64,000 nucleotides of DNA, taken from positions 1 through 64,000 of the IMG/VR virus record IMGVR_UViG_3300023180_000050; one strand, written 5' to 3'. The position numbers were made by a program, and so were the translations under genes. Positions 6,228 through 60,689 of the stretch are shown one piece after another; positions within the stretch are counted from its first letter, which is position 1; every line of letters begins with the position of its first letter. Under the pieces are notes generated by a model. It was not told the origin of the DNA. It saw only the letters and a list, made by a program, of their open reading frames with translations, and searched no databases. The DNA is from a virus.

Positions 6228-6237
6228 GATATATAAA
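6228..6237 (+). promoter_or_regulatory. Late promoter motif GATATATAAA
   Basis: The octamer GATATATA lies 43 bases before the neck gene start, as at many structural operons in this window. It resembles the T4 late -10 element TATAAATA, which needs no -35 box. Confidence 0.65.
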
Positions 6238-11424: not shown

Positions 11425-11435
11425 GATATATAGTA
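11425..11435 (+). promoter_or_regulatory. Late promoter motif GATATATAGTA (upstream copy)
   Basis: First of two identical 11-base copies in the 103-base gap before the sheath gene. The second copy is 52 bases further on. Confidence 0.6.
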
Positions 11436-11476: not shown

Positions 11477-11487
11477 GATATATAGTA
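11477..11487 (+). promoter_or_regulatory. Late promoter motif GATATATAGTA (proximal copy)
   Basis: Lies 35 bases before the sheath ATG. Tandem late promoters fit the high sheath demand. Confidence 0.7.
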
Positions 11488-16007: not shown

Positions 16008-16038
16008 GGAACTTAATTCCTTCTATTTTCTATAATTT
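16008..16038 (+). promoter_or_regulatory. Candidate promoter GGAAC-N18-TATAATTT
   Basis: GGAAC at 16008-16012 and TATAATTT at 16031-16038 with 18 bases between, immediately after the second tube gene. It is one of the clearest members of the ECF-like promoter set and lies upstream of the hub chaperone gene. Confidence 0.55.
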
Positions 16039-18648: not shown

Positions 18649-18680
18649 TTTTTTCCCAACGCCGGGAAATCTTATATTTG
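18649..18680 (+). promoter_or_regulatory. Host-type promoter, T-rich box and TATATTTG
   Basis: TATATTTG at 18673-18680 matches the Bacteroidota -7 element TAnnTTTG. A T6 run at 18649-18654 lies 18 bases upstream, near the -33 region. It precedes the dCMP deaminase/sigma factor operon, as expected for early or middle genes read by host polymerase. Confidence 0.5.
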
Positions 18681-18713
18681 TTTCACAACTACCTTTTTAA
18701 GCCGGAACTGTCC

Positions 18714-19274
18714 ATGGAAGAAACGTTTATAAATTCTGAATTATTCTTTTCGCAAGAGTCTTCAGCACAAGGGGATTATTGGATTGCCAAACCCTCTCTT
18801 AACAAAGTTGCAACCTCAGAAAACAATTTTGATGAAATAAGCGAAACCTTTTATTCTTTAAAGGATAGGAAGATGGACAGGGTCTATCTAGAAATGGCAA
18901 AGGTGTGGGCAACAAATTCTTACTGTGAGCGAATGAAGGTAGGTAGCTTAATAGTAAAGGATAAGTCAATCATCTCTGACGGGTATAACGGAGCTCCTAC
19001 TGGATTTCCTAATATTTGCGAAGATGCTTCCCACGTAACGCTTCCACATGTACTCCATGCAGAAGCTAATGCAATTACTAAATTGGCCAAGAGCACACAA
19101 AGCTCGGACGGATCTACACTTTATGTTACGGTCTCTCCGTGTTTTGAATGCTCTAAACTGATTATACAGAGCGGAATAAAAAGGTTAGTATTTAAGGAGT
19201 TATATAGAAAACTTGAATCACTCAAGTTTTTATTTGACGCCGGTATTGAGCTTGTTAGGTTAAATAATAAATAG
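18714..19274 (+). CDS. dCMP deaminase
   Basis: 186 residues from ATG 18714; an in-frame TTG at 18678 falls inside the promoter box. The zinc-binding cytidine deaminase motif is complete: HAEANAI (His115, catalytic Glu117) and SPCFECSKL (Cys143, Cys146). SYCERMKVGSLIVKDKSIIS and DGYNGAPTGFPNIC are typical of dCMP deaminases rather than tRNA or cytidine deaminases. It converts dCMP to dUMP to feed dTMP synthesis, as T4 Cd does. About 50 N-terminal residues are extra. It heads the operon that includes the sigma factor. Confidence 0.92.
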   Translation: MEETFINSELFFSQESSAQGDYWIAKPSLNKVATSENNFDEISETFYSLKDRKMDRVYLEMAKVWATNSYCERMKVGSLIVKDKSIISDGYNGAPTGFPNICEDASHVTLPHVLHAEANAITKLAKSTQSSDGSTLYVTVSPCFECSKLIIQSGIKRLVFKELYRKLESLKFLFDAGIELVRLNNK

Positions 19275-19306
19275 GAGGTTAAAAAGGGAAATTACAAAGG
19301 GGAAAA

Positions 19307-19924
19307 ATGGCAAAAGAAAAAAATATACAAGTCTTGGCTGAAAGCTTCATTCAGACCAGGGGCGAAAGAGAGTTCAGACCTCTCTACGAAAGAGTAAAAC
19401 CAGGGGTATTAAATCATTGTTACGGGATTCTTAAAGATTTTGAATTGGCAGAAGATGCCTTTTTGAATGCAATGTCAAAGGTCTGGCAGAAGATTGACCA
19501 ATATGACAGCAGCAGGGGTAATTTTTCAACGTGGTGTTATAATATTGCTAGAAATGAATCTCTTCTGCTTCTAAAAAGTAGGAAAAGGTATATTTCTCAG
19601 ACATCCGAAGAAATGGAATACACCTCAGCAAAGGCCGAGGAAAAAAATCCATCGTATGATATAGAGGATGATCCTCTTTGGGAATTTTTATGTGGCGGAA
19701 ATGATATTGATGACGTGTATGAGCAAGTTATTGATGAGATAAAGGAACTTCCTGATATCTATAGGGATATAATGATTGATCGCGAGATTAATGGTATGAA
19801 ATACAAAGATATCGCAGACAAGTACAATATTAAAAAGAGATCTATTGCTACTAGAATACGTAGGGCCAGGACCAAAATTCGTAAGAAAATGGAGGATGCA
19901 ATGGGAAAATCTGATTTTAAGTGA
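19307..19924 (+). CDS. Sigma70-family (ECF-like) sigma factor
   Basis: 205 residues with sigma region 2 (EDAFLNAMSKVWQKIDQYDS, then RGNFSTWCYNIARNESL; residues ~45-90) and region 4 (LPDIYRDIMIDREINGMKYK, then DIADKYNIKKRSIATRIRRA; ~145-195) joined by an acidic linker, as in group 4 factors. Regions 1 and 3 are absent. Region 4 suggests it reads a -35 box, unlike T4 gp55. GAGGT occurs ~30 bases upstream, too far for a usual ribosome site. It overlaps the next gene (TGATG). I propose that it recognises the G[AG]AAC-N18-TATAA sites; this is inference. Confidence 0.85.
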   Translation: MAKEKNIQVLAESFIQTRGEREFRPLYERVKPGVLNHCYGILKDFELAEDAFLNAMSKVWQKIDQYDSSRGNFSTWCYNIARNESLLLLKSRKRYISQTSEEMEYTSAKAEEKNPSYDIEDDPLWEFLCGGNDIDDVYEQVIDEIKELPDIYRDIMIDREINGMKYKDIADKYNIKKRSIATRIRRARTKIRKKMEDAMGKSDFK

Positions 19925-20385
19925 TGTGGAATATATTAGCAATATTTAGAATTTTCAAAGTTCTCAAGGAGCTGAGAATCTATTCGCAGTATAGGTCTAC
20001 CGTGAAAGAGGAAAGCATGAATTCCCCCTTTTGGACAAGGCTTAGACTTAGATATGATTGGTTTAGAAGAATTTATACTGTGGTTAATTTACCACCCGAG
20101 GTTACAATGTCTCGTGAGTTTCCGGTAGATGCTAGGCCTGCATACGTTTTTGAAGAGCTTAAAGGAGTAAATGATTATCTTACCAAACTAAATCTCCAGG
20201 AGGTAATTACACCAGTCCTTAAGCCAATCCCAGAAACAAATGGGGATTCTTATTTGGTTGTATATTATTTCTTTTTCCGATACCTTTCATGGATATGGAT
20301 ATTTAGATTTATTCTAGAGGTGGTTGGAATTATATTGTTGGTTGTTAAGTGGAATTTTTTGATAAGCTATTTTGGATTTGGATAA
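19924..20385 (+). CDS. Putative membrane protein, function unknown
   Basis: 153 residues from ATG 19924, which overlaps the sigma stop; GTG 19921 is also possible. The N-terminal part is basic and amphipathic (ILAIFRIFKVLKELRIYSQY). The C-terminal ~50 residues are strongly hydrophobic (YLVVYYFFFRYLSWIWIFRF, then ILEVVGIILLVVKWNFLISY) and would form one or two membrane helices. There is no recognisable family. It lies in the operon with the sigma factor and a nuclease and could act at the host inner membrane early in infection. Confidence 0.55.
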   Translation: MWNILAIFRIFKVLKELRIYSQYRSTVKEESMNSPFWTRLRLRYDWFRRIYTVVNLPPEVTMSREFPVDARPAYVFEELKGVNDYLTKLNLQEVITPVLKPIPETNGDSYLVVYYFFFRYLSWIWIFRFILEVVGIILLVVKWNFLISYFGFG

Positions 20386-21184
20386 TATAGAGAAAGTAAA
20401 AGAAGACTACCAGAGAAAGCTAGACATATTCAAGGATCCCAAATTCATATTTAACGAGTCAGCTCACACGTATCATTTTGATGGTATAAAATATGACTCG
20501 GTTACAACGTTTCTAAGGATATTCAAAACCCCCTTTGACCGGATGTACTGGGCTAAAAGGAAGGCTAGGGAGAGGGGAATAGAAGTTGACGAGATACTAA
20601 ATGAATGGCAGGAGAAAGCAAACATAGCTAATTCTCTGGGAACGGAGGTCCATAAATGGATTGAAGACTACTGGTCTGGACTAGATCCTGAAATTCCGGA
20701 AGATGACGACGTTAGAGATAGGGTTGAAAAATTCCTGCTTTTAAAGGAGGAGAGGTTTAGTGATCTTGTTCCCCTTGAATCGGAGCTTAAGTTATTTTCC
20801 AAAAAATGGAGACTTGCTGGAACAGCCGACCAACCTTTCCTCATGTGGGACAAGAAGCAAGATAAAATTTTATTTTTAATCGGGGACTGGAAAACTAATA
20901 AGGAATTTAAGGATGATAAACACCCAAAGGGTAGATTCAAAAAGCTTCTACATCCATTTGCTGACCTTTATGAAAATTCGCATAATGAGTATTCCATACA
21001 GATTAGTTTGTATAGATTGATCATAGAGGAAGAAACCGGTTTGGAAACGCACGGGGGTTTTCTTTGTCATATCGGACCCCAGGATAAACCTAAGTTATAT
21101 CCAGTAAAAGATTTGCGGGAAAGACTCAAGATATATTTACAGCATAACAGGGAAGAATTCGATGTTTTCGACATCTCTGAGTGA
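20372..21184 (+). CDS. PD-(D/E)XK nuclease, RecB-like
   Basis: 270 residues; the only plausible start is TTG 20372 (or TTG 20378). All RecB-family nuclease motifs are present in order: GTEVH (His94), GTAD (Asp153), IGDWKTN (Asp172-x-Lys174) and QISLY (Gln210, Tyr214). The N-terminal HTYHFDGIKYDSVTTFL is typical of phage exonucleases of this group. There is no Cas4-type cysteine cluster. Likely roles are DNA degradation or recombination during replication. It overlaps the membrane protein gene by 14 bases. Confidence 0.8.
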   Translation: MDLDNIEKVKEDYQRKLDIFKDPKFIFNESAHTYHFDGIKYDSVTTFLRIFKTPFDRMYWAKRKARERGIEVDEILNEWQEKANIANSLGTEVHKWIEDYWSGLDPEIPEDDDVRDRVEKFLLLKEERFSDLVPLESELKLFSKKWRLAGTADQPFLMWDKKQDKILFLIGDWKTNKEFKDDKHPKGRFKKLLHPFADLYENSHNEYSIQISLYRLIIEEETGLETHGGFLCHIGPQDKPKLYPVKDLRERLKIYLQHNREEFDVFDISE

Positions 21185-21212
21185 AACATTATTGTTTAAG
21201 CAACTAAAAAAT
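21183..21212 (+). promoter_or_regulatory. Weak G[AG]AAC-type promoter candidate
   Basis: GAAAC at 21183-21187 is followed, after 17 rather than 18 bases, by TAAAAAAT. It is the least convincing member of the set. Confidence 0.25.
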
Positions 21213-21225
21213 AAAAAGAAATCAA

Positions 21226-21741
21226 ATGGCAAAGAAAAAAACAGAAGGCAAGGTAGTAGAACTTGATGCAAATCAACTTGCAGACGCTGTAGGCGAGGAA
21301 GCACTTTCTCGTTTAAACGAAGGAAGAATCAAAGCAGCCGAGGAAAACTTGGAAAATGCAAAAAAGAGGGTATCCACAAAAGTTTATGCAGTCCAATTTG
21401 ATTCTATGGATCATATTGATAGGTTTGTAACCTTCATGGAAAACGATGCAGAGTGGAAGGAAAAGGAATCCCTTGGTGTAATTGAGATTTGTAAGGTTTT
21501 AGACAAACTCAAATCTGATGGCATTAAAAATAACATTCTTTACTTGCAAGCTTTGCCTTTAGAAGCAAGCCACTACTTTATCTCTAAGCAGAGTGGTAAA
21601 GGTCTTAAAGAGGCTAAAGAATTTATCTCCTTATTGAAGCCCTTTGAACAAGGACTTGAATCTGCAAAAGCTGATGCAAGGGAGATTCAGGATTTGGAAA
21701 AAGAACTCGCTGCAGCTCAACAAGGGCTTGAATTAGCCTAA
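21226..21741 (+). CDS. Conserved-looking soluble protein, function unknown
   Basis: 171 residues. Charged helical ends flank a compact middle (STKVYAVQFDSMDHIDRFVT, then FMENDAEWKEKES) that may be a small alpha/beta fold. The last 40 residues are a coiled coil ending AAAQQGLELA. A strong rho-independent terminator follows 26 bases later, so this gene is probably a single unit. I do not recognise a family. Confidence 0.6.
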   Translation: MAKKKTEGKVVELDANQLADAVGEEALSRLNEGRIKAAEENLENAKKRVSTKVYAVQFDSMDHIDRFVTFMENDAEWKEKESLGVIEICKVLDKLKSDGIKNNILYLQALPLEASHYFISKQSGKGLKEAKEFISLLKPFEQGLESAKADAREIQDLEKELAAAQQGLELA

Positions 21742-21767
21742 GAGCACATTAACAAAACCATAGTTTT

Positions 21768-21800
21768 AAATAGGCTCCAGGTGATTGGGGCCTATTTTTT
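21768..21800 (+). terminator. Rho-independent terminator
   Basis: AAATAGGC (21768-21775) pairs with GCCTATTT (21790-21797), followed by T residues. It separates the preceding gene from the late promoter at 21822. Confidence 0.75.
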
Positions 21801-21821
21801 AGTGTATATGGTTTTGGGTTA

Positions 21822-21830
21822 GATATATAG
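21822..21830 (+). promoter_or_regulatory. Late promoter motif GATATATAG
   Basis: Lies between a terminator and the start at 21854, 32 bases before the ATG. The clean context makes this one of the best examples of the motif. Confidence 0.7.
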
Positions 21831-21853
21831 TAAAACTAAAATTGTAAATAATC

Positions 21854-22147
21854 ATGGTACAAAAGATTAAAGACAACTTCCAATTTATAGTATTGGGGTT
21901 CCTAGTATTGGTTTTTTTCAGACAATGCGGAGTAAACAGAGATATTGACCGTATCGAAAAGGAGCTTAAAGCTTCTAACACTGAATTAAATACTAAGCTT
22001 GACTCGATCAACACTCTTACAAAAGCAGAGATCAGACACGAAATGAATCAGGTAATGTTCCAATTTCTTATTTATGAAGATGATTTTGATAAGAAAAGAA
22101 TTTCCTTGTCTGAGATTAAAAATAAGATAGAAGCAAGTGAAGAGTAA
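21854..22147 (+). CDS. Small single-pass membrane protein with coiled coil
   Basis: 97 residues: one N-terminal membrane helix (FQFIVLGFLVLVFFRQ, residues ~9-24), then a coiled coil of ~45 residues and a charged end. No lipobox-type signal is evident, although a Cys follows the helix. The arrangement recalls i-spanins or small holin-accessory proteins, but no lysis genes are nearby. It overlaps the next gene by 11 bases. Confidence 0.55.
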   Translation: MVQKIKDNFQFIVLGFLVLVFFRQCGVNRDIDRIEKELKASNTELNTKLDSINTLTKAEIRHEMNQVMFQFLIYEDDFDKKRISLSEIKNKIEASEE

Positions 22148-22907
22148 ATCAAAACTGGTTAACGGTTTCATCATAAGCACCTTTGTATCTCTGTATTTGA
22201 TGGTGTCTGTGATTTCCACTATCCACGTAATTGACTTCTTTAAACTATCTAACCCAACTTGGTTAGCTATATCTCTTGCTATAGCATTTGAGGTGGGTGC
22301 AGCTGCATCCCTTGCTTCATTAATAGCTATGGAAAAAATGAACAAGTCACTGGTGTGGTTCTTGTTTATCCTTTTAACTGCAATGCAAGCAATGGGTAAT
22401 ACCTATTATGCCTTTGTAAATCTTGGTGATTATACCTCTTGGTCTGAGCTTTTCGGTCTGATTGAGGAAGAGGAAATATTCCAAAAGAGAGTCCTTTCTA
22501 TAGTTTCTGGTGCTATTCTACCGATAGTGGCTTTGGGCTTTATTAAGTCATTGGTTGATTACATAAAACCTGAAGGGAATGAAGTTTCCAATTCTAAAGA
22601 ACACGAAACTACTGAAATCGATTCACAGGATGAAGATTCTCACGAGAGTGAACTTCAGGATATAAGTGAACCTTTAATTTATGACTCGCATTTGAGCTTA
22701 ATAAATTTACAAGGGGAAACACTCCAATCTGAAGATGCTGCTGAATCTGATAAAGTAGAGGAGGACAAAGAAGCAGAAAAGAAACCGATAGTTCAGGATA
22801 ACGTTGAGGTAGTTAATGTGAATTCGAATAAGGAAACAGCCACTAGAAAAAGAACTCCTAGTGTTAAAACCCCAGATGATCCTAATTTAAACCCAACTAA
22901 GCTTTAA
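22137..22907 (+). CDS. Multi-pass membrane protein with acidic tail
   Basis: 256 residues from GTG 22137, overlapping the previous stop. Four hydrophobic segments lie in the first ~145 residues (for example FIISTFVSLYLMVSVISTIH, LVWFLFILLTAMQAMGNTYY, VLSIVSGAILPIVALGFI). An acidic Ser/Glu-rich cytoplasmic tail follows and ends KRTPSVKTPDDPNLNPTKL. The family is unknown to me. Its late promoter and virion-type neighbours suggest a late function, such as membrane attachment of assembly intermediates or superinfection exclusion. Confidence 0.55.
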   Translation: MKSKSKLVNGFIISTFVSLYLMVSVISTIHVIDFFKLSNPTWLAISLAIAFEVGAAASLASLIAMEKMNKSLVWFLFILLTAMQAMGNTYYAFVNLGDYTSWSELFGLIEEEEIFQKRVLSIVSGAILPIVALGFIKSLVDYIKPEGNEVSNSKEHETTEIDSQDEDSHESELQDISEPLIYDSHLSLINLQGETLQSEDAAESDKVEEDKEAEKKPIVQDNVEVVNVNSNKETATRKRTPSVKTPDDPNLNPTKL

Positions 22908-22908
22908 T

Positions 22909-23583
22909 ATGAGCGCAAACATAGGTGATAGCTTTGAAATATTTGGAGGCGGGTCCAGTAACGGAGGTACCGGATCTGGTACCCCCTTTGGTTATGGTGA
23001 TAGTAATCCTGCTTTAACAACAGGGCAGTCCGGTCCGTGGAATACTAAATACACATTAATTGCAAACGATCCTGGATCACTGAAGAGAGTAAACCTTACT
23101 TTCTCCAACTATAATGATCCTCATGAAGTTAGAATATTTCAAACCTCGCTAAACGTAACATATCAGGCTGAGATAGAGGAGAAATTGGATTTATCTGAGT
23201 ACTTCCACCCACTCCAGTCCTTTTCAAGCTACCAAAAGCAAACCTTTGTTATATCACCAGATGCTTCAATAAATTTGGATCCTGGTGATTTTGACACAAC
23301 ATTGGGTGAAGTAAGCTTATTGATGGCCAGGGCTCATTACAAAGCGGATGCAGTTGAGGACCAAAGGCTTTTATACTGGCATTACAATTCTGGGTATAGG
23401 AATATTATGTCTGATATGATGATGCTTACTGGGCAGGTAAAGCCAGATGCTGCATGGAAGGGATGGCAAACATTACCTAATATCGACGAGCAAGTCGGAT
23501 ATACTGGAGCAGCAACAGGCGGATTCGTTTTTTCAAATCCAACTGAATATCCAGTTAAACTTACAATATTAACTGCAAGCTAA
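22909..23583 (+). CDS. Virion-type protein with Gly-rich N-terminus (paralogue A)
   Basis: 224 residues. The N-terminal ~35 residues are Gly/Ser-rich. The C-terminal ~100 residues share a pattern with the next gene: LLYWHYNSGYRNIMSDMMML, TGQ, a Trp-rich stretch, GGFVFSNPTEYPVKLTILTA. It is probably a beta-rich structural protein. It abuts both neighbours (1-base gap before, 1-base overlap after). Function unknown. Confidence 0.6.
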   Translation: MSANIGDSFEIFGGGSSNGGTGSGTPFGYGDSNPALTTGQSGPWNTKYTLIANDPGSLKRVNLTFSNYNDPHEVRIFQTSLNVTYQAEIEEKLDLSEYFHPLQSFSSYQKQTFVISPDASINLDPGDFDTTLGEVSLLMARAHYKADAVEDQRLLYWHYNSGYRNIMSDMMMLTGQVKPDAAWKGWQTLPNIDEQVGYTGAATGGFVFSNPTEYPVKLTILTAS

Positions 23584-24128
23584 TGGCAACTAGACCTATT
23601 ATATGTCCACCGCAGCCGATAGACGGATTCCTTTTTAGAAAGGACAAATTTGTTCTTGAGGAAGACTACAACATCACGAACTTCTTTGATTTCAGTGACC
23701 TTCAGGATGAGGTCATTTCATATTCAAGGATGAAAGTAACATTAAAAAAGAACAAGAGTGTAAAGATTAGCCAGACTGATATAGGGGATGATAATGGCTT
23801 TGTTAAATGGGTAGCTGTTAAGGTAAAATACCCAGCACCAAAGAATCCTGTATTATATGGGGCTCAAACTCCTATTATACCTGGGGTACCAACACCAACT
23901 AACGGAACCCCTCAGGTTAAAAAATACATCTATTGGACATATAGGGGAAATACCTATAATATCGGGGAGATGATGATCTTGACCGGTGATAAATTGGGAT
24001 CTACTGATTCTGAAAAAAGCGGCTGGAATCTTAGCGAGGATTTTCTCCCATACGAAGATGGGGGAATAACCTTCAGCAACCCTCACACAGATATTGACGT
24101 AAAGCTTGAAATTATTATAGCTAGATAA
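23583..24128 (+). CDS. Virion-type protein (paralogue B)
   Basis: 181 residues. The C-terminal half matches the previous protein in order and spacing: YIYWTYRGNTYNIGEMMILT, GWNLSEDFLPYEDGGITFSN, then a final beta strand VKLEIIIAR. The middle has a Pro-rich loop (IPGVPTPTNGTPQ). The pair probably arose by duplication and may form a heteromeric complex in the tail or head. Function unknown. Confidence 0.6.
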   Translation: MATRPIICPPQPIDGFLFRKDKFVLEEDYNITNFFDFSDLQDEVISYSRMKVTLKKNKSVKISQTDIGDDNGFVKWVAVKVKYPAPKNPVLYGAQTPIIPGVPTPTNGTPQVKKYIYWTYRGNTYNIGEMMILTGDKLGSTDSEKSGWNLSEDFLPYEDGGITFSNPHTDIDVKLEIIIAR

Positions 24129-24155
24129 TTTTTTCTAAAATTTTGACTTTAACTG

Positions 24156-24166
24156 GAATATATAAT
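24156..24166 (+). promoter_or_regulatory. Late promoter motif variant GAATATATAAT
   Basis: An upstream copy, 36 bases before the exact motif at 24192. It would give tandem late promoters, as before the sheath gene. Confidence 0.4.
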
Positions 24167-24191
24167 GGAAAAGTTTCAATATCACAGGTGT

Positions 24192-24200
24192 GATATATAG
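24192..24200 (+). promoter_or_regulatory. Late promoter motif GATATATAG
   Basis: Lies 31 bases before ATG 24223 and rules out the upstream in-frame GTG 24190, which falls inside the motif. Confidence 0.65.
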
Positions 24201-24222
24201 AAAGCAAAAAAACACAAGTAGA

Positions 24223-26958
24223 ATGGACTTACTTAATCAATTAAAAACTCTTAGGGAAACAACCACTAACCCTGAAGTTAAATCTATTTGCGAATCCCAT
24301 ATTAATAAAATACAAAACGGGGAGAACGTAAATGAATCCGCGGTCCTTGAATCTGTTGATCAGGTTGTAAAGGAAAGCGAAGGTGAAAGCGCTGTAAATC
24401 CTATGGAGATGGTCAGGCAACAAGAAATTGAAAGATCTAAATCTGCAGCCCAGAGGTTGATGGAATCTTGGGGAGGTATTGGATCATCAACTTCTAGAAA
24501 TGCAGGATCTTACGTAGATGCTGAAAAGAATGAGAGCAATAATGAGGTAAGCAATATCTCAGAAAGCTTGAAAGAGGTTGCTGAAAAAGATCCAGCAGCT
24601 AAGGCTTTTATTGATTCTCAAGCGGTAAACAACTTAGGGGTTTACGAGTCTATTCTTTCACTTAAAGGAACTGGTATTTACGAACATCCTAATGTTAAGA
24701 TCCTATGTGAAAAATATACCCACTTGCTAAAAAGCAACAATGTGCCTGAGTTTTTGCTTGCTGAATCTTTTGTGCAAGAGCTTCAGAACTTTAACTGGGA
24801 TAATAAAGTTAAGTCTGCTGTAGAAGCTATTAGTGAAAAAGTCCAATCACACCTACCTGAAATTGAGGTATCTAAAGCTCTTTACTCTATTGAGAAAAGC
24901 GCTGGTGCTGATTTCTACTCACCAGTAACTGAATCTTTGAATAAGTGGTTGATTTCAGAGAACAAATCAGTTGCCTTGCTTTCGAAGGAACTATCAAGAT
25001 GGTCTTTTAACCCAACGGTTAGAAATCTTGTTAATTCACTTTCTTTGATGGAGTCATCAGAAAGTAAATTAAGTATTCCAGTTAATAACGGAAATTCTTC
25101 AGTTAAGAAAGTTTACTCTCCGGTACATGTAAGTGGAGGTAAAACTGTGTTTACCATTGGTAATAATGTCTTTGAAGGAAACTCCGAAGGAATTAAGAGG
25201 CTTAATAGAGCAGAATTTGAAGCTCTTCCAGCATCTTTCAGATCTTTACTAGAATCTTTCTATTCTTCTATGGTTAAGATTAACGAAAATGGTCTTAGCT
25301 TCTATGTTGGAAACAGCAGCTTTAAACTTGTTGAAGAAAACGATTCAGTTTCTATCTACTCGAAAGAAACAAAGATCAACTTCAGTGACCTTAATCAACT
25401 TGCTAAGCAAGTAGCTTTGGAGATTTCTGGTAGCTTAGGAGTTAATGAATCTAAAGCGGTTTCAGATCTTATTAACTTATATGAGAATTTCGAAAATATT
25501 GTTGAGTTAGATTTTGCTAAGAGATTGGAATCAAAGGTATTTGAAGGTGTATCTGTAAACCTTATTAAATGGAACTCAAACCTTTACCTTAATAGGATCA
25601 ACGAGGGAATGAATGAGAATTCTCTATTTAAGGTTAACGGATCACAAGCTACCAACATGGTTAAGGATTTGATGAAGTACGACATCTCTGAAGGATTAAC
25701 AGAATTCTTGGATGGCGAGAACAGAATCAAGTCTATTATGCTTAACGATAGAAAGCAAATCATTGATAACATTTCTATTGTCGAGAATGAAATCAATAAG
25801 ATTTCACATGCAATGGCTACAAACCCTCTTTACGAAAACTCAAAAGAAATGCACAGAGCCAAGCACATGCTTGAGCAAGAGCTTTCTTCATTGAGGAAAA
25901 AATGGGCGGCTGTTAACGAGGAGATTGAAAAGATTGAGTCAACTGCAACAGAGGTAAACGACTTGAACGAGGACGAGAAATTTACTGTAGGCGACTACGT
26001 GAAAGTAAAAGAGTCTGGTAATACTGGTAAGGTAATTTCAGTCGATAGCACTTCTGGATCTTATACAGTTCTTATGGACAACGGAAGAACTGGTGATTTC
26101 AGAATGGACGAGATCGTTGATATCGAAGAGGCATTAAAATCTGCTGGTGAAGAAAACCAAGAAGCAGACGAGACTCAGGAAGAAATTAAGGAGCAAGAAA
26201 TGGCAGTAGCTCCTGAAAAACAAACTGAATCTGCAAAAGATAAAACTCCTGCTGCTACACTTAAGGCTAATACTTCTGCAGCTCCTTCTGCTAAGGATCA
26301 AGAAGATGCTGGTAAAAAGGACATTGAAAAGGAAGATCATGCTAATTTAGAGGAAGCTCCAGAAGGTAGCGAGAAGGAAACCAAATATGACATAAAGTTA
26401 AAAGATTCTTTGGTTGACAAAATGGGATACAACGTGAATGAAAATTCTGAAGACGTTGAGTCTACTGAATCTGAAATGGCTGAGGCTCCTGCTGACGGTA
26501 ACACTGAGTTATCCGAAAGAGACGTTGAAAACACGGATCAAAACCTAGCAGAAGCACCAGGTGGAAGAGATCATGCAGATTATGATGTAAAAGCTGCTCA
26601 TGCAGAGGAGAATAATCCTGACATGGTTAAAACAGACCCTGAAATGGCTTCAGCTCCTGGTGATGGTACAGATAAAGAAATGCATCACGAGGTTGGTAAA
26701 GAAATGGGATACAATCTTGATGAAGCCAACGACGTTGAAAAGACAGATCAACAACTTGCAGTAGCACCAGGTGGTGAGCACAAAGCAGAATATGATGTTG
26801 AAGTTGCTAAAGCTGAAAAGGCAGTAGCAGATGTCATGAAGACAAACCAAGAATTGGCTGAAGCTCCTGCAGCAGGAACTGAAGCTGAAACTGATGTTGA
26901 GGTAAACCCAGAAATGGGATATAACATTGACGAAAGCGAAGAGTCAAAAAAAAACTAA
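24223..26958 (+). CDS. Large acidic virion-associated protein with C-terminal repeats
   Basis: 911 residues from ATG 24223. Helical N-terminal two thirds with many NES/NEN tripeptides, including VNE at residues 36-38. A small beta domain follows (FTVGDYVKVKESGNTGKVIS, then VLMDNGRTGDF), like a KOW/SH3 barrel. The last ~250 residues are acidic repeats built around [LM]A.AP..G and MGYN.[DN]E. It ends at TAA directly after nine A residues, and the -1 frame continues with similar AP..G sequence. The VNE tripeptides match the suspected head-protease signal, so it may be a head-internal or scaffold-like protein. No family is recognised. Confidence 0.65.
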   Translation: MDLLNQLKTLRETTTNPEVKSICESHINKIQNGENVNESAVLESVDQVVKESEGESAVNPMEMVRQQEIERSKSAAQRLMESWGGIGSSTSRNAGSYVDAEKNESNNEVSNISESLKEVAEKDPAAKAFIDSQAVNNLGVYESILSLKGTGIYEHPNVKILCEKYTHLLKSNNVPEFLLAESFVQELQNFNWDNKVKSAVEAISEKVQSHLPEIEVSKALYSIEKSAGADFYSPVTESLNKWLISENKSVALLSKELSRWSFNPTVRNLVNSLSLMESSESKLSIPVNNGNSSVKKVYSPVHVSGGKTVFTIGNNVFEGNSEGIKRLNRAEFEALPASFRSLLESFYSSMVKINENGLSFYVGNSSFKLVEENDSVSIYSKETKINFSDLNQLAKQVALEISGSLGVNESKAVSDLINLYENFENIVELDFAKRLESKVFEGVSVNLIKWNSNLYLNRINEGMNENSLFKVNGSQATNMVKDLMKYDISEGLTEFLDGENRIKSIMLNDRKQIIDNISIVENEINKISHAMATNPLYENSKEMHRAKHMLEQELSSLRKKWAAVNEEIEKIESTATEVNDLNEDEKFTVGDYVKVKESGNTGKVISVDSTSGSYTVLMDNGRTGDFRMDEIVDIEEALKSAGEENQEADETQEEIKEQEMAVAPEKQTESAKDKTPAATLKANTSAAPSAKDQEDAGKKDIEKEDHANLEEAPEGSEKETKYDIKLKDSLVDKMGYNVNENSEDVESTESEMAEAPADGNTELSERDVENTDQNLAEAPGGRDHADYDVKAAHAEENNPDMVKTDPEMASAPGDGTDKEMHHEVGKEMGYNLDEANDVEKTDQQLAVAPGGEHKAEYDVEVAKAEKAVADVMKTNQELAEAPAAGTEAETDVEVNPEMGYNIDESEESKKN
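26197..26955 (+). repeat. Degenerate coding repeats ([LM]A.AP..G ... MGYN.DE)
   Basis: About seven copies of an AP..G-centred motif and three of MGYN.[DN]E in an acidic context. The -1 frame segment to 27134 adds FAPTGKD and SVAPDGKE, which resemble the same unit. Confidence 0.6.
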
Positions 26959-27134
26959 GAAAAATACTTAGTAAAGTTTGGGCTTTTGCTCCAACGGGAA
27001 AGGATCAGTCTGAAACACCAGAGCCTTTCGTCGATGAGATAAAAGATAAAATGAGCGTCGCCCCAGATGGAAAAGAACCAACTGGAGACACGCTCATTTC
27101 TTCTGAAGATGGATCTGAAGAGGATAAGGTCTAG
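26949..27134 (+). CDS. Candidate -1 frameshift extension of the acidic repeat protein
   Basis: The zero frame reads TCA AAA AAA AAC TAA. The heptamer A AAA AAC (26949-26955) is a classic -1 slippery sequence placed right before the stop. After the slip the frame stays open for 59 codons (26955-27131) to TAG 27132-27134. It encodes KLRKILSKVWAFAPTGKDQS and MSVAPDGKEPTGDTLIS, which carry the same AP..G motif as the parent protein. A long-range stem (27049-27058 with 27090-27099) lies downstream. A homopolymer error in the source sequence would look the same. Confidence 0.5.
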   Translation, partial: KKLRKILSKVWAFAPTGKDQSETPEPFVDEIKDKMSVAPDGKEPTGDTLISSEDGSEEDKV

Positions 27135-27137
27135 GCC

Positions 27138-27168
27138 GAAACTAACCTCGAGGTTTAAACTAAAAATA
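27138..27168 (+). promoter_or_regulatory. Candidate promoter GAAAC-N18-TAAAAATA
   Basis: GAAAC at 27138-27142 and TAAAAATA at 27161-27168 with 18 bases between. It precedes the gp55-like gene by 20 bases. A 12-base palindrome AACCTCGAGGTT lies in the spacer. Confidence 0.4.
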
Positions 27169-27188
27169 ATATAAGTATTAATAAGGTT

Positions 27189-27548
27189 ATGGCAAAGGCT
27201 TATGTAAAAAATAAAGACCTGTTGGCTGCTATTCTAGAGTCAAAGGAAAAAGGTGAGCTAACACCAGAGACCATCGAGATGTTTGGTTTAATGGTTCAAG
27301 GCATTTCAAAAAAGATGGCTTACCGTGACCCAGACGATAAAGCTGATTGTATGGCTTTTGCTATGGAAGACCTTTGTAAATATTGGAACAGGTTCAATCC
27401 AGAAAAGTCGAATAATCCATTTGCATATTATACACAAATTGCAAAAAATGGGTTTGCAAAGGGGTGGAAGAAAATACATCCACCAAAGGCACCAAAAACG
27501 ATTCCATTCTCTTACATAACAGGCGATGACAATACATATAATGTATAA
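27189..27548 (+). CDS. Late sigma factor, gp55-like
   Basis: 119 residues. KNKDLLAAI near the N-terminus, GLMVQGISKKMAYRDPDDKA in the middle and RFNPEKSNNPFAYYTQIAKN follow the order and spacing of T4 gp55 (NKELLQAI, AEGLSKRFNF, NFDETKYKNPHAYITQA). This part is the sigma region 2 that contacts the late -10 box. T4 gp55 is 185 residues, so the C-terminal clamp-binding tail is shorter or lost. In T4, gp55 with gp33 and the sliding clamp directs RNA polymerase to TATAAATA. Here GATATATA motifs before structural genes are the likely targets. It is followed after two bases by the gp4 gene. Confidence 0.82.
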   Translation: MAKAYVKNKDLLAAILESKEKGELTPETIEMFGLMVQGISKKMAYRDPDDKADCMAFAMEDLCKYWNRFNPEKSNNPFAYYTQIAKNGFAKGWKKIHPPKAPKTIPFSYITGDDNTYNV

Positions 27549-28036: not shown

Positions 28037-28638
28037 AACCTTTCGAAGAGCAAATTAAGGACCTAAGAAAGGAATCACAGTCGATTTCTAGCATTTCTAA
28101 GGAATCGAATGGTTTGTTTAAGAAAAAATATGGACCGAATGGTTCTGGTGGAAGACTAGAATTCAATGGAGATTTCATACCAGGTAAATTCTATACCTGC
28201 GAATATAAAACGAAAACCAAGATTTCTGATAAAGTTCCCTTTATTGATAGGGAGCCCGTTTTCATCTTTTTGAAAAAAGAGAAGTTCCAATCTGGATCTA
28301 TAGCGGTGTCTGTAGATCTTGGTGTCATCCCCCCTGATTATAGGGGTAATATTATGGTTAAGTTGTGGAACCAGTATTATAATATATTTAAGGATAATGA
28401 GTCCTTGCCATATACTTCCCAAATTCCCATACAAGGGATCAGTAGGGCATTTGATGCTTTATTAAACGGTACTGGGTGGAAAACTTCTCTTACCGGATTT
28501 AAGCTCGATTTTATGAATAATATAAAGGTTGTGGACTATACTGATCTTGTCAGAATCCCATATCTTTCTGATTTTATGATAGAGGGACAATCCATTAATG
28601 GGATATATAGTGATTATAGATCGAAATTAAATCTCTAA
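28033..28638 (+). CDS. Virion assembly protein of unknown role
   Basis: 201 residues from GTG 28033, overlapping the gp4 stop. Basic N-terminus, then a beta-rich core with GKFYTCEYKTKTKISDKVPF followed by IDREPVFIFL. This pattern (Y.YK.K....P..DR.P) occurs in a widespread T4-like phage family whose role I cannot name with certainty. Its position between gp4 and the portal suggests a head-completion or baseplate-wedge role. The end of the gene contains a late promoter motif for the portal genes. Confidence 0.55.
   Translation: MKPFEEQIKDLRKESQSISSISKESNGLFKKKYGPNGSGGRLEFNGDFIPGKFYTCEYKTKTKISDKVPFIDREPVFIFLKKEKFQSGSIAVSVDLGVIPPDYRGNIMVKLWNQYYNIFKDNESLPYTSQIPIQGISRAFDALLNGTGWKTSLTGFKLDFMNNIKVVDYTDLVRIPYLSDFMIEGQSINGIYSDYRSKLNL
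28602..28610 (+). promoter_or_regulatory. Late promoter motif GATATATAG inside the preceding gene
   Basis: Exact octamer in the 3' end of the upstream gene, 62 bases before the first portal start. Confidence 0.5.
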
Positions 28639-28671: not shown

Positions 28672-30300
28672 ATGGCCGGATTTAACGAAACACCAGAAGG
28701 GAACCCGATATTCCAAAGGATTAGAGAGTCTGTAAAGTCTCTCAGTAATTTTGGTATGAGGTATGGTGATATGGTCATTAAAAATTCACAGGCCATTGGA
28801 TCGATAGAAGCTGATTTTATGAAAAAGCAATCTATCGATGATGAGAGCTTGCTTTATTCCCTCGGTAGACAAGACACGACCACAAGACAATTTATCAGCT
28901 ACTATGATAAGGATTATGCAGGAAAGAGAGATTATCTTAGGAAGTTTGCTCTGAATCCTGAGATAGAGTACATCTTGGATACTGTCTGTGACGAAGCGAT
29001 AACTTTTGACTCATACAACTTCTTTGCATATCCAGCATTTTTAAATCTTACCGATGTAAAGGATAAGATAAAAAACCGTCTGGACGAGAATTATAAGAAT
29101 TTGTATGACATGTTCGGCTTCGGCGATGATATCAGCGGGTGGCAATACTTTAGACAGCTAATGGTCGATGGCTTTCTTGCCTTTGAAATAGTTTATGATG
29201 ACAAAGGTAAGAAGATTATTGGATTTAAGGAATTAGATGCAACTACTCTAATGCCATCTGTTGAAAAGCAGCCTGATGGTACTTATTTGAGTGTTTGGTA
29301 TCAATACCCAAAGGATATCAATAAGAGGAGGATGCTATATGACTCCCAGGTGATTTACATATCATTTGCTAAGGGAAACACAGTTTCTAGGATTAGCTAT
29401 GTCGAAAGACTTATAAGGCCCTACAACATTCTTAGGATAATCGAGTACACTAGGGTGATATGGTCGGTTATGAACGCATCGTTCAGAATGAAAATGACTG
29501 TACCGATTGGATCGAGATCTCCACAGAAGTCTATGCAAACCTTGGGTGAGCTTATGAGTATCTATAAGGAAGATATTAGGTTCAATGATGAGAGTGGGGA
29601 GTTAACAGTAGATGGCAGACCTAAGATACAGTTTTATAAGAATTATCTAATGCCTTCTGGTGTTAATGGAACACCAACAATAGAACCTATTAATAATGCT
29701 GGTCCAAACTTAAACGATCCCCAGCCTCTTGCTTATTTCTACGATAAGCTAGTTCAGGAATCTAAAATTCCTTTTTCTAGGTTCCAAGGTCCTGATGGTG
29801 GATCTATAGGAAACTATTCGAATGGTGCAGAAGGATTGGATAAGGAGGAAATAAGGTTTGGTAAGTTTATTAGTAGGCTTAGATCTATCTTCCAGGATCT
29901 TTTGGTTAAGCCACTTTGGATTCAAATGTGTAAGGATTTTCCGGAGTTGGAGAAGGATTACTTATTTAAGAGTCAACTGGGGTTGGAATATGTTTCTGAT
30001 AATCCATTCAGGGTTAATCAAGAGATAGAAACCATGCTTAAAAAGAAAGAGCAAATTGATGGTATGTATGCTCTTACAGATGATAGCGGTGAGCCTTTCT
30101 TTTCATTGGCTTATCTAATTGAGTCTCATTTGGGAATGACTGACGATGATATAAAGGCAAATAAGGAAGCTATCAAGAAAAGGAAAGAGGAGGAAAAAAA
30201 GAAAGCTGACGAAGAGGCTAAATCTTCGGAGGAAGAACCCGCAGAGGAAGCTCCAGAAGAATCTCCGGAGGAAACCCCGGAAGAACCCCCACAAGAATAA
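28672..30300 (+). CDS. Portal protein, first paralogue (gp20)
   Basis: 542 residues of T4 gp20 type (T4: 524). Conserved stretches are YDKDYAGKRDYLRKFALNPE, DTVCDEAITF, LMVDGFLAFEIVYDDKGKKI, GNTVSRISYVERLIRPYN and RMKMTVPIGSRSPQKSMQTL. The last ~45 residues are a Glu/Pro-rich tail (EEEPAEEAPEESPEETPEEP). gp20 forms the dodecameric portal at one head vertex and nucleates head assembly. A second, equally complete portal gene follows after nine bases, which is unusual. Confidence 0.93.
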   Translation: MAGFNETPEGNPIFQRIRESVKSLSNFGMRYGDMVIKNSQAIGSIEADFMKKQSIDDESLLYSLGRQDTTTRQFISYYDKDYAGKRDYLRKFALNPEIEYILDTVCDEAITFDSYNFFAYPAFLNLTDVKDKIKNRLDENYKNLYDMFGFGDDISGWQYFRQLMVDGFLAFEIVYDDKGKKIIGFKELDATTLMPSVEKQPDGTYLSVWYQYPKDINKRRMLYDSQVIYISFAKGNTVSRISYVERLIRPYNILRIIEYTRVIWSVMNASFRMKMTVPIGSRSPQKSMQTLGELMSIYKEDIRFNDESGELTVDGRPKIQFYKNYLMPSGVNGTPTIEPINNAGPNLNDPQPLAYFYDKLVQESKIPFSRFQGPDGGSIGNYSNGAEGLDKEEIRFGKFISRLRSIFQDLLVKPLWIQMCKDFPELEKDYLFKSQLGLEYVSDNPFRVNQEIETMLKKKEQIDGMYALTDDSGEPFFSLAYLIESHLGMTDDDIKANKEAIKKRKEEEKKKADEEAKSSEEEPAEEAPEESPEETPEEPPQE

Positions 30301-30309
30301 TAATATAGA

Positions 30310-32935: not shown

Positions 32936-32968
32936 ATTTTTTTAGTACGTTTTGGTTTCTTAGATTTG
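32936..32968 (+). promoter_or_regulatory. Host-type promoter, T-rich box and TAGATTTG
   Basis: TAGATTTG at 32961-32968 fits TAnnTTTG. A T run ending at 32942 lies 18 bases before it. It precedes the DNA ligase and the replication genes. Confidence 0.5.
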
Positions 32969-38041: not shown

Positions 38042-38051
38042 GATATATAAG
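38042..38051 (+). promoter_or_regulatory. Late promoter motif GATATATAAG
   Basis: Lies 32 bases before ATG 38074, in the 38-base gap that ends the replication operon. Confidence 0.65.
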
Positions 38052-40026: not shown

Positions 40027-40057
40027 TTTTTATTAGCGTTTGTTTTCCTTAGTTTTG
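40027..40057 (+). promoter_or_regulatory. Host-type promoter, T-rich box and TAGTTTTG
   Basis: TAGTTTTG at 40050-40057 fits TAnnTTTG. A T-rich run near 40027-40032 lies ~18 bases upstream. It precedes the Fpg-like gene by 15 bases. Confidence 0.5.
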
Positions 40058-41599: not shown

Positions 41600-41609
41600 G
41601 ATATATAAG
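41600..41609 (+). promoter_or_regulatory. Late promoter motif GATATATAAG
   Basis: Lies 30 bases before the GTG start of the nucleotidyltransferase gene and marks the switch from repair to head genes. Confidence 0.65.
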
Positions 41610-45208: not shown

Positions 45209-45219
45209 GATATATAAAG
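45209..45219 (+). promoter_or_regulatory. Late promoter motif GATATATAAAG
   Basis: Lies 34 bases before the protease-scaffold gene. The same 13 bases GATATATAAAGTT recur inside that gene at 45869. Confidence 0.7.
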
Positions 45220-49059: not shown

Positions 49060-49070
49060 GATATATAGTA
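49060..49070 (+). promoter_or_regulatory. Late promoter motif GATATATAGTA
   Basis: Right after the capsid terminator and 30 bases before ATG 49090. It separates the internal head protein operon from the capsid operon. Confidence 0.72.
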
Positions 49071-53734: not shown

Positions 53735-53756
53735 GCTAGAAACTTATCCCCCATTT
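53728..53756 (+). terminator. Hairpin overlapping the stop codon, possible terminator
   Basis: GGGATAAG (53728-53735) pairs with CTTATCCC (53743-53750). Only a mixed C/T tract follows. The loop region contains GAAAC of the next promoter. Confidence 0.45.
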
Positions 53757-53769
53757 CTTCCTATAATTC
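53739..53769 (+). promoter_or_regulatory. Candidate promoter GAAAC-N18-TATAATTC
   Basis: GAAAC at 53739-53743 and TATAATTC at 53762-53769. The -10 box is identical to that at 60682. It precedes the glycosyltransferase, kinase and asparagine synthetase operon. Confidence 0.55.
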
Positions 53770-56622: not shown

Positions 56623-56633
56623 GATATATAAAG
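56623..56633 (+). promoter_or_regulatory. Late promoter motif GATATATAAAG
   Basis: Lies 24 bases before ATG 56647, in the gap after the asparagine synthetase gene. Confidence 0.7.
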
Positions 56634-57734: not shown

Positions 57735-57766
57735 GACAAGTTTCTTTTGAAACTTGTCTTTTTTTG
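57735..57766 (+). terminator. Rho-independent terminator
   Basis: GACAAGTTTC (57735-57744) pairs with GAAACTTGTC (57749-57758) around TTTT, followed by a T-run. The 3' arm includes the -35-like GAAAC of the next promoter. Confidence 0.85.
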
Positions 57767-57779
57767 TGTGATATAAAAA
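57749..57779 (+). promoter_or_regulatory. Candidate promoter GAAAC-N18-TATAAAAA
   Basis: GAAAC at 57749-57753 and TATAAAAA at 57772-57779, 18 bases apart, before the gene at 57800. It overlaps the terminator above. Confidence 0.5.
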
Positions 57780-59279: not shown

Positions 59280-59290
59280 GATATATAATA
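59280..59290 (+). promoter_or_regulatory. Late promoter motif GATATATAATA
   Basis: Lies 32 bases before ATG 59312 and excludes the in-frame TTG 59276. It forms a divergent pair with the minus-strand site. Confidence 0.68.
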
Positions 59291-60658: not shown

Positions 60659-60689
60659 GGAACACTTTACCTGGTTCACCATATAATTC
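60659..60689 (+). promoter_or_regulatory. Candidate promoter GGAAC-N18-TATAATTC
   Basis: GGAAC at 60659-60663 and TATAATTC at 60682-60689 in a 118-base gap without other features. A long leader of ~80 bases would precede ATG 60772. Confidence 0.55.

Follow-up and report, generated by a model that had tools for sequence, protein, structure and literature searches.

The window, a stretch of 64,000 nucleotides forming positions 1 to 64,000 of the IMG/VR virus record IMGVR_UViG_3300023180_000050, carries an ECF-type sigma gene and a gp55-like late sigma gene, and its genes run head to tail on a single strand. It belongs to a family of large phages, of which 159 further loci were found (the relatives used for comparison are not independent of one another). 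Both sigma genes are present in 102 of the 161 sequences examined, in constant order and about 6.5-9.4 kb apart, and the remaining 59 stop short of the expected position of the second one. Both sigmas also occur in 13/14 longer records, and 11/14 have exactly two region-2 genes (ECF and gp55-like). A megablast comparison of the 9-kb region with INPHARED phages gave no match, and a scan of genome contigs returned only two remote relatives, both in MAGs of Bacteroidota (34% across residues 2-104; 24%). The ECF gene lies in the following operon:

18649..18680, + strand: host-type (Bacteroidota sigmaA) promoter, by conservation; T run from 18649, TATATTTG at 18673-18680
18714..19274, + strand: dCMP deaminase gene, opening the ECF operon (phrog_174, E 3.5e-53)
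19307..19924, + strand: ECF-type sigma gene (regions 2 and 4), the proposed middle sigma (Pfam, PDB matches, model fold)
19921..20385, + strand: overlapping gene directly 3' of the ECF gene, product with a hydrophobic C-terminal stretch (conserved in 27/27 sequences)
20372..21184, + strand: exonuclease-like gene (phrog_298, E 1.6e-31)

The 205-aa product of 19307-19924 matches Pfam Sigma70_r2 (PF04542, E 2e-13) and Sigma70_r4_2 (PF08281, E 1.5e-10), both above the cut-off, which places it by its regions 2 and 4 among the ECF (group IV) sigmas; no r1 or r3 model that would indicate region 1.1 or region 3 appears among the 12 Pfam families listed at E up to 1. ECF chains are among its best PDB matches, SigW of Bacillus subtilis being the best. 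The product of 19921-20385 has a maximum 19-residue hydropathy of 1.39-2.54 across 27/27 sequences and no match in PHROG at E up to 1; from its sequence and position it is a possible candidate for an anti-sigma factor. The exonuclease-like gene probably closes the early operon.

The original prediction had placed the ECF gene in an operon behind a host-type TAnnTTTG promoter, and this element is indeed found upstream of the operon in 35 of 44 dereplicated sequences; nine lack it, and in 3/44 a GRAAC pattern (see below) stands there. In the window the ATG at 18714 is a likelier start of the deaminase than the listed TTG at 18678, which falls within the promoter. Bare TAnnTTTG is not distinctive in the window (36 on the + strand, 25 on the - strand) and becomes rarer with a preceding T run. 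Enrichment of all promoter classes was measured in 10 related records against 100 dinucleotide shuffles, over 2106 gene upstreams that are not independent cases because orthologous genes were counted one by one. T run plus TAnnTTTG occurs in 96/2106 upstreams versus 14.5 (SD 4.0) in shuffles and 31 in antisense. A scan with the sigma70 consensus gave 25 matches versus 27.6 (SD 5.4) in shuffles, a lack of excess to be expected with a host whose -10 element differs from this consensus. Two further host-type promoters were noted:

32937..32968, + strand: host-type promoter, DNA ligase gene downstream (motif)
40027..40057, + strand: host-type promoter, gene 40072 downstream (motif)

A second class of putative promoters combines a GRAAC element with a TATAA-like -10. 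GRAAC-N17/18-TA[AT]AA stands in 92/2106 upstreams versus 9.7 (SD 3.0, maximum 17) in shuffles and 7 in antisense, and at spacers 12-16/19-24 the excess is smaller (73 vs 46.2, SD 6.8). An unbiased scan of 5-mers by offset upstream of TATAAT returned GAACT, GGAAC, TGAAA and GAAAC in a single register with spacer 18. A-first elements are also in excess in the family (AAAAC, 19 vs 7.1 at spacer 17; AGAAC, 10 vs 2.0 at spacer 18). The window itself holds GRAAC-N17/19-TA[AT]AA[AT] ten times on the + strand (6 intergenic, 4 intragenic) and once on the - strand, and includes these middle-type sites:

16008..16036, + strand: GGAAC-N18-TATAAT, gene 16039 (baseplate-hub-like) downstream (motif)
21183..21210, + strand: GAAAC-N17-TAAAAA, gene 21226 downstream (site in 10/10 genomes)
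21226..21741, + strand: gene for a 171-aa protein, function not assigned, with the most conserved middle-type promoter (10/10 genomes)
53739..53767, + strand: GAAAC-N18-TATAAT, gene 53787 downstream (motif)
57749..57777, + strand: GAAAC-N18-TATAAA (motif), overlapping the listed TTG 57764, so that the true start is probably later
60659..60687, + strand: GGAAC-N18-TATAAT, genes 60763/60808 downstream (motif)

Two of the gene groups in this class resemble baseplate parts, therefore the class is not purely replicative, and in some genomes 5/17 groups also carry a site of the late or host class. A terminator overlaps the -35 element in only 2/96 sites, so such an arrangement is not general.

The second sigma gene lies behind a promoter of this class:

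27049..27099, + strand: stable hairpin, flanked by the late gene upstream and the gp55 promoter downstream, without a long T tail (z -6.75)
27138..27168, + strand: middle-type promoter of gp55, GAAAC-N18-TAAAAATA, with a palindrome within the spacer (conserved motif)
27189..27548, + strand: gp55-like late sigma gene, region 2 only, 119 aa (PHROG, profile, structure)

Its product matches the PHROG late sigma (E 1.6e-14), falls under the cut-off for Pfam Sigma70_r2 and has no Pfam match for region 4. The family profile recovers T4 gp55 (7d7c) with E 1e-7, and the structures superpose with Z 14.0 (rmsd 7.8 over 113), which identifies a gp55 homologue with a sigma region-2-like domain. The protein aligns only to residues 9-122 of T4 gp55, and thus the conserved segment 3 and the C-terminal, clamp-binding end of the T4 protein have no counterpart in the alignment. 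GRAAY-N17/18-TA precedes gp55 in 37/37 sequences, with constant spacing while the letters of the spacer vary, a count that rests on GRAAY and a looser -10, the strict pattern being found in 5/9 gp55 orthologues. The GAAAC-N18 site predicted for this gene is thus a conserved feature, and as a motif the arrangement is that of SPO1, with the late-sigma gene behind a middle-class promoter.

In a looser, two-step scheme gp55 would be expressed early by read-through and its GRAAC promoter would merely boost it, so that there would be no strict relay. The head-to-tail genes on one strand are compatible with this, as is the position of gp55 directly behind a gene that is part of a late unit; moreover, hairpin 27049-27099 lacks a long T run and is absent from the terminator-scan output for the region. 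However, hairpins that precede the gp55 promoter or span it were seen in the window and in 4/5 relatives folded. In two of the family's loci (L159 and L131) hairpins with T runs stand directly upstream of the promoter, and two others (L043 and L074) have one whose loop contains TATAAT; we regard the read-through scheme as unlikely.

The third class, GATATATA, stands in 316/2106 upstreams versus 16.7 (SD 3.8) in shuffles and 53 in antisense. In the window it occurs 16 times on the + strand and never on the - strand. Eight of these are 24-35 nt upstream of a listed start. Three (45869, 59280, 61158) fall within listed ORFs and have the next start more than 260 nt downstream, although the one at 59280 is 32 nt before the likelier start 59312. 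The sites before genes are:

6228..6235, + strand: late promoter, gene 6280 (head-closure-like) downstream (10/10 genomes)
11477..11484, + strand: late promoter, tail sheath gene downstream, second copy at 11425 (10/10 genomes)
21822..21829, + strand: late promoter, gene 21854 downstream (motif)
24192..24199, + strand: late promoter, gene from ATG 24223 downstream (motif)
28602..28609, + strand: late promoter, portal gene 28672 downstream (9/9 genomes)
38042..38049, + strand: late promoter, gene 38074 downstream (motif)
41600..41607, + strand: late promoter, gene 41630 downstream (motif)
45209..45216, + strand: late promoter, prohead protease gene 45243 and then major head gene 47273 (motif)
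49060..49067, + strand: late promoter, gene 49090 downstream (motif)
56623..56630, + strand: late promoter, gene 56647 downstream (motif)
59280..59287, + strand: late promoter, likelier start 59312 downstream (motif)

That structural genes lie behind gp55-suited sites, as had been proposed, is borne out by [GC]ATATATA upstream of the sheath (10/10 genomes), portal (9/9) and protease (9/9) genes. By homology with T4 there is a good case that gp55 would read GATATATA; late promoters of T4 are described without a -35 element in the relevant passages of PMC2988020.

For the second class, the -10 of SigW promoters is CGTA and that of the phage is TA[TA]AA, whereas the -35 element GAAAC is common to both. 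In SigW, R175 and R172 contact G-35, and T171 and T168 contact A-34, according to the relevant passages of PMC6713349. In the alignment the positions of R175, R172, T171 and T168 are R, R, T and S in the sigma4 helix of the phage protein; both arginines and the threonine are invariant among 27 phage sequences and the serine nearly so, whereas K170, which contacts G'-31, is an alanine. The modelled domain 4 superposes on sigmaE region 4 bound to -35 DNA with rmsd 1.2 over 69 residues. GRAAC was absent from T4 and from Chryseobacterium phage MA9V-2 (one phage each), in neither of which a relative of the phage ECF sigma was found; in the T4 control of the upstream-word search ATAAATA came out on top.

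Where distant huge phages have a different residue at the G contact, the element is mostly T- or A-first, so motif base and contact residue covary in part. LR756500 retains the arginine, yet TAAAC is as frequent there as GAAAC; LR745206 lacks it, yet shows a slight GAAAC excess. AAAAC is in excess at spacer 18 in LR756504 (23 vs 4.6), thus T is not its sole first base, and neither this phage nor LR756500 has such a site directly upstream of gp55. LR756501 lends no support: its AAAAC signal at spacer 18 is weak (8 vs 1.9), and in the frame read no recognition helix can be recognised in its sigma. In Lak-B1 the unbiased scan found TAAAC/AAAAC at spacer 18, and a reading of this phage as motif-less was dropped accordingly.

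The SigW contacts, the absence of the motif from T4 and MA9V-2 and the partial covariation together back the earlier guess of G[AG]AAC as the target of the first sigma, and make a strong case, at the level of sequence, that the ECF sigma would recognise GRAAC. Bacteroidota possess many ECF sigmas, and a host alternative sigma of this type might read GRAAC instead, the phage ECF protein having another role such as core sequestering; however, the motif is absent from MA9V-2, which has a Bacteroidota host, as well as from T4 (again one phage each, both with no sigma relative found), and its base covaries in part with the contact residue of the phage protein, which makes this quite unlikely. T4 middle promoters combine a phage box with a -10 element, and by analogy the ECF-like protein could bind the -35 like MotA while host sigma reads the -10; we consider this highly unlikely, because the phage protein also has a region 2 and an ECF fold, and the TATAA -10 differs from the host TAnnTTTG.

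A T4-type middle system, i.e. genes for both MotA and AsiA, was not found in the family. The MotA profile detected only T4, the positive control (1/11 records), as did the AsiA profile (1/10), in records that may be incomplete or hold unrecognisable homologues; a MotA search without T4 gave 0/14, with the controls silent too. Pfam profiles of gp33 and of the gp45 clamp likewise detected only T4 (1/10 each); a clamp loader gene is present in the phage, thus its clamp is likely too diverged for the profile.

We consider it probable, judging from these motifs and homologies, that the host RNA polymerase core is used by three sigmas in turn, host, ECF and gp55. Host sigmaA would act on TAnnTTTG to give the early operon of dCMP deaminase, ECF sigma, membrane protein and exonuclease. 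The ECF sigma would then join the host core, with domain 4 on the SigW-like G[A/G]AAC -35 and domain 2 on the TA[T/A]AA -10, 17-18 nt downstream, and turn on middle genes including the gp32-like SSB, the clamp loader, a UvdE-like endonuclease and gp55. The latter, with region 2 only, would finally bring the core to GATATATA before the sheath, portal, protease/head, tail and baseplate genes. As predicted anatomy this relay is well supported; from the observed genes, motifs, spacings, positions and conservation, and the promoter class found for each gene, we infer the temporal order of the three classes. A third sigma is present in 3/14 longer records, so the steps may exceed three.

T4 is the model of ordered phage transcription, with a middle step that requires an activator and a sigma remodeller. 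The present phage shares a gp55 homologue with T4, where the middle step depends on AsiA/MotA and the late step on gp55/gp33/gp45, whereas here, with MotA and AsiA not detected, the middle step would be made by the phage's own sigma. In Bacillus phage SPO1, gp34 acts with gp33 at the late stage, and sigma families, promoters and phage lineage are other than in the present phage. According to passages of PMC9429907, gp28 and gp34 of SPO1 regulate middle and late genes; in both phages the host core would thus be served first by the host's sigma and then by two phage sigmas, one for the middle and one for the late stage, but in the present phage the former is ECF-type and the latter gp55-type. 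The relay had been put forward as undescribed for T4; it appears to be new for T4 relatives but not in principle, since sigma cascades are known from SPO1. The sigma of phages phiEco32 and 7-11 is ECF-like. It works on host core, with promoters predicted from sequence, and as far as the relevant passages tell (PMC4331800) this single sigma serves middle and late genes, which the present phage would split between two. Group 2 jumbo phages, Lak included, carry two sigma types plus gp33, and thus resemble the present phage in having phage sigmas, and AsiA is reported in a subset of them, whereas it was not found in the present family; the passages concerned (PMC7824862) mention no promoters, order or relay. 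An ECF-then-gp55 relay is not described in the portions covered of the open-access literature, including PMC7824862, PMC6713349, PMC4331800, PMC2988020, PMC7162821, PMC9429907 and PMC10537231.

It is conceivable, if doubtful, that a single relay extends through Bacteroidota phages, from the window's family, with records of up to 373 kb, to Lak and the huge phages of 460-640 kb. In that case ECF domain 4 and the -35 element would co-evolve at one contact, where arginine goes with G (by itself or next to T) and other residues mostly with T or A. The ECF sigma would also be checked by a conserved membrane-anchored anti-sigma (19921-20385), which would gate the middle switch. If the host-ECF-gp55 relay is real, a broad set of T4-related phages, probably with Bacteroidota hosts, would use a sigma of their own for the middle step and then gp55. 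This would provide a clean and testable case of a sigma relay, together with a predicted promoter code for phages whose transcription is almost undocumented. It would also offer a natural series in which a sigma factor and its -35 element can be followed as they change together.

The original prediction was of a relay in which the host sigma, reading a TAnnTTTG promoter, leads to an ECF-like sigma factor, which leads in turn, through GAAAC-type sites, to a gp55-like late sigma serving the structural genes. The elements concerned in the window are:
18649-18680, a T run and TATATTTG, upstream of the deaminase/ECF operon
19307-19924, the ECF sigma gene
19921-20385, a gene overlapping the ECF gene at its 3' end
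21226-21741, a gene with a 171-aa product
27189-27548, the gp55-like late sigma gene

The IMG/VR record measures 66,654 bases in full, of which the window covers the first 64,000. PHROG matches in the window (terminase, contractile sheath, two portals, prohead protease, major head protein, head closure, DNA end protector and clamp loader) suggest a tailed, T4-related phage; the two portal-like genes, both matching phrog_213, stand side by side at 28672-31914. IMG/VR was scanned twice, and the best 80 of 200 and the best 80 of 244 confirmed relatives were taken, with many contigs common to both lists; 159 loci from these best matches, together with the window and one piece of the record it comes from, made up the 161 sequences examined. 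Both sigma genes occur in 102 of them, the ECF gene only in 30 and gp55 only in 29, and all 59 single-sigma sequences stop, as read from the table, short of the expected place of the other gene. The order and strand of the two genes are invariant across the family sequences examined, and the ECF gene is preceded by a dCMP deaminase and followed by an exonuclease wherever the piece extends that far. A search for sigma region 2 in 14 longer records recovered the ECF gene in all and gp55 in 13 (the remaining record, G004, ends before the gp55 place); exactly these two were present in 11, and three had a third sigma gene of 267-300 aa (L214:14532-15335; L176:11094-11990; G009:C1:279788-280690), RpoD-like by our reading. 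The third gene of G009 stands behind a host-type site.

The ECF gene encodes a small sigma factor that has regions 2 and 4; in the PDB it comes nearest to SigW, an ECF sigma from Bacillus subtilis (E 1.2e-11). An AlphaFold model of the protein (pTM 0.51, mean pLDDT 79) superimposes on two DNA-bound parts of sigmaE: region 2 with -10 DNA (4lup; rmsd 1.6 over 91 residues) and region 4 with -35 DNA (2h27; 1.2 over 69). The overlapping gene, present in 27 of 27 sequences, encodes a protein of about 150 aa with a hydrophobic C-terminal stretch, possibly a membrane anti-sigma. The 119-aa product of 27189-27548 is a relative of T4 gp55 containing region 2 only (best structural match gp55 in 7d7c, Z 14.0, rmsd 7.8 over 113); T4 gp55 has a conserved segment 3 and a clamp-binding end, whereas the alignment of the phage protein ends before both.

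The Bacteroidota promoter consensus is TAnnTTTG, which the TATATTTG site fits. The motif is kept in 35 of 44 dereplicated deaminase upstreams (-120 to +100); the nine others (L043, L044, L045, L047, L048, L053, L055, L056, L074) have, in those inspected, TCCGTATATT or similar, and a GRAAC-type pattern occurs in the same stretch in three of the 44 (L018, L044, L045). We infer that the host probably belongs to this phylum, given the -7 element and two remote relatives in Bacteroidota.

Upstream of gp55, GRAA[CT]-N17/18-TA[ATG][AG]A is found in all 37 dereplicated sequences (from 129); the stricter GRAAC-N17/18-TA[AT] is found in 24, the GAAAT variant adding 7, and spacer 18 is retained despite quite different spacer sequence (e.g., L079 and L043). 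Genome-wide counts covered 10 records (the window record and nine more) with 2106 genes called by a home-made caller, so that start codons are approximate, and orthologues were counted separately. GRAAC-N17/18-TA[AT]AA precedes 92 of the 2106 genes, whereas 100 dinucleotide shuffles give 9.7 (SD 3.0) and the antisense strand 7, and a scan presetting TATAAT only returned GAACT, GGAAC, TGAAA and GAAAC in one register at spacer 18.

Several other features lie near these sites. The gp55 promoter spacer contains the palindrome AACCTCGAGGTT (27144-27155), perhaps an operator, and CC[CT]CG[AG]GG occupies this position in 16 of 37 sequences. A hairpin (27049-27099, z -6.75) lies upstream of the promoter, and the stretch across the promoter itself folds poorly (z -0.65). 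In two relatives the hairpin before the promoter has T runs (L131, z -2.2; L159, z -3.6); in L043 and L074 it spans the promoter, its loop containing TATAAT (z -7.4 and -6.5), and L116 gave no signal (z -0.7), the tested piece being cut into its hairpin. In the late gene that ends at 26958 there is an A_AAA_AAC run (26946-26955), and the -1 frame remains open for about 60 further codons (26946-27134). Such an A run and overlapping frame recur in 29 of the 36 dereplicated sequences; L121 has a single open frame across the run, and six have another gene. This looks like conserved programmed frameshifting. At 57749-57777 inspection by eye places the GAAAC -35 in the downstream (3') arm of a short inverted repeat with T's behind it; a script found a -35 in a terminator-like repeat also at G002 61808 and G006 103232 (2 of 96 sites), and we read all three as putative terminators joined to promoters.

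For the late class, ATATATA topped the enriched upstream 7-mers in each of the 10 records, and GATATAT ranked near it. GATATATA precedes 316 of 2106 genes (16.7 in shuffles, 53 in antisense), and [GC]ATATATA lies most often 25-34 nt before the start codon. The identical script applied to T4 as a positive control ranked ATAAATA first, which forms part of the T4 late consensus TATAAATA. Sites were also counted for each orthologous group, taking [GC]ATATATA at 14-100 nt and the strict GRAAC pattern at 30-110 nt upstream of starts. Late sites stand before the sheath and head-closure-like genes in 10/10 genomes, the portal, protease, 41630 and 56647 in 9/9 each, and the tape-measure-like 42436 in 8/9. 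Middle sites precede the clamp loader (7/9), gp55 (5/9), the UvdE-like 39145 (Pfam; 5/9), SSB (3/6) and, in 10/10 genomes, 21226-21741, the best conserved middle gene, whose product had no Pfam match; host sites precede the ECF operon (8/10) and ligase (4/9). The classes seldom coincide on one gene (middle and late 6, middle and host 1, late and host 2, out of 91, 276 and 97). Against a tidy scheme, the baseplate-hub-like 16039 and G009 65966 carry middle sites, and five of the 17 groups with at least two middle sites also carry late or host sites (16039, 57764, SSB, G009_65, G009_162).

As to which sigma reads the middle class, SigW targets GAAACCT: it grips G-35 through R175 and R172 (base and backbone), A-34 through T171 and T168 (a purine contact and the backbone) and G'-31 through K170 (PMC6713349). 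Because the phage helix KKRSIATRIRRAR aligns with these contacts (S168, A170, T171, R172 and R175 in SigW numbering), it should read G and then a purine, which matches the GAAAC and GGAAC seen; the K170 contact, in contrast, is lost to alanine. Phage T182, R183 and R186 are invariant across 27 sequences. Neither GRAAC-N17/18 sites nor relatives of the ECF sigma were found in T4 or the Chryseobacterium phage MA9V-2, which carries another, long sigma gene. Helices of distant huge phages were aligned by eye; the analysis covered 350 kb of LR745206, 400 kb of LR756504 and 200 kb each of LR756502 and LR756501, and Lak-B1 was translated with TAG as sense.

Residue at SigW position 175 and counts of -35 variants (background in parentheses)
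Window family, R: at spacers 17 and 18, GAAAC 28 and 42 (4.8), GGAAC 8 and 17 (2.1), TAAAC 2 and 3 (4.2); at spacer 17, AAAAC 19 (7.1), departing from G first
LR756500, R: at spacer 17, GAAAC 13 (1.9), TAAAC 20 (4.0)
LR745206, N: TAAAC 15 and 11 (2.6), GAAAC 2 and 4 (0.8)
LR756502, N: TAAAC 9 at spacer 18 (2.1), GAAAC 0
LR756504, Q: TAAAC 19 at 17 (3.5), AAAAC 23 at 18 (4.6), GAAAC 1 (0.9)
Lak-B1, K: at spacer 18, TAAAC 36 (4.0), AAAAC 20 (3.2), GAAAC 2 (0.9)

The residue at 175 and the first -35 base seem to vary together in part across phages, which is suggestive and not proof because the distant phages may be related, are AT-rich and include the mixed LR756500. AAAAC-N18-TATAA lies upstream of gp55 in Lak-B1 and TAAAC-N17-TATAA in LR745206; LR756500 and LR756504 have no such element directly before gp55.

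T4 was the sole match to the Pfam MotA profile among 11 records, and to the AsiA, gp33 and gp45 profiles among 10; the narrowness of the profiles and other lineages have to be weighed here, because gp33 orthologues have been reported from group 2 jumbo phages and AsiA from some of these (PMC7824862), and AsiA-like proteins from some huge phages (PMC7162821). Sigma types occur in jumbo phages (PMC7824862), and in 7-11/phiEco32 the middle and the late genes share one phage sigma (PMC4331800). The portions of the open-access literature searched contained no account of a relay from an ECF sigma to gp55; the principle of a phage sigma cascade is already known from SPO1 (PMC9429907).
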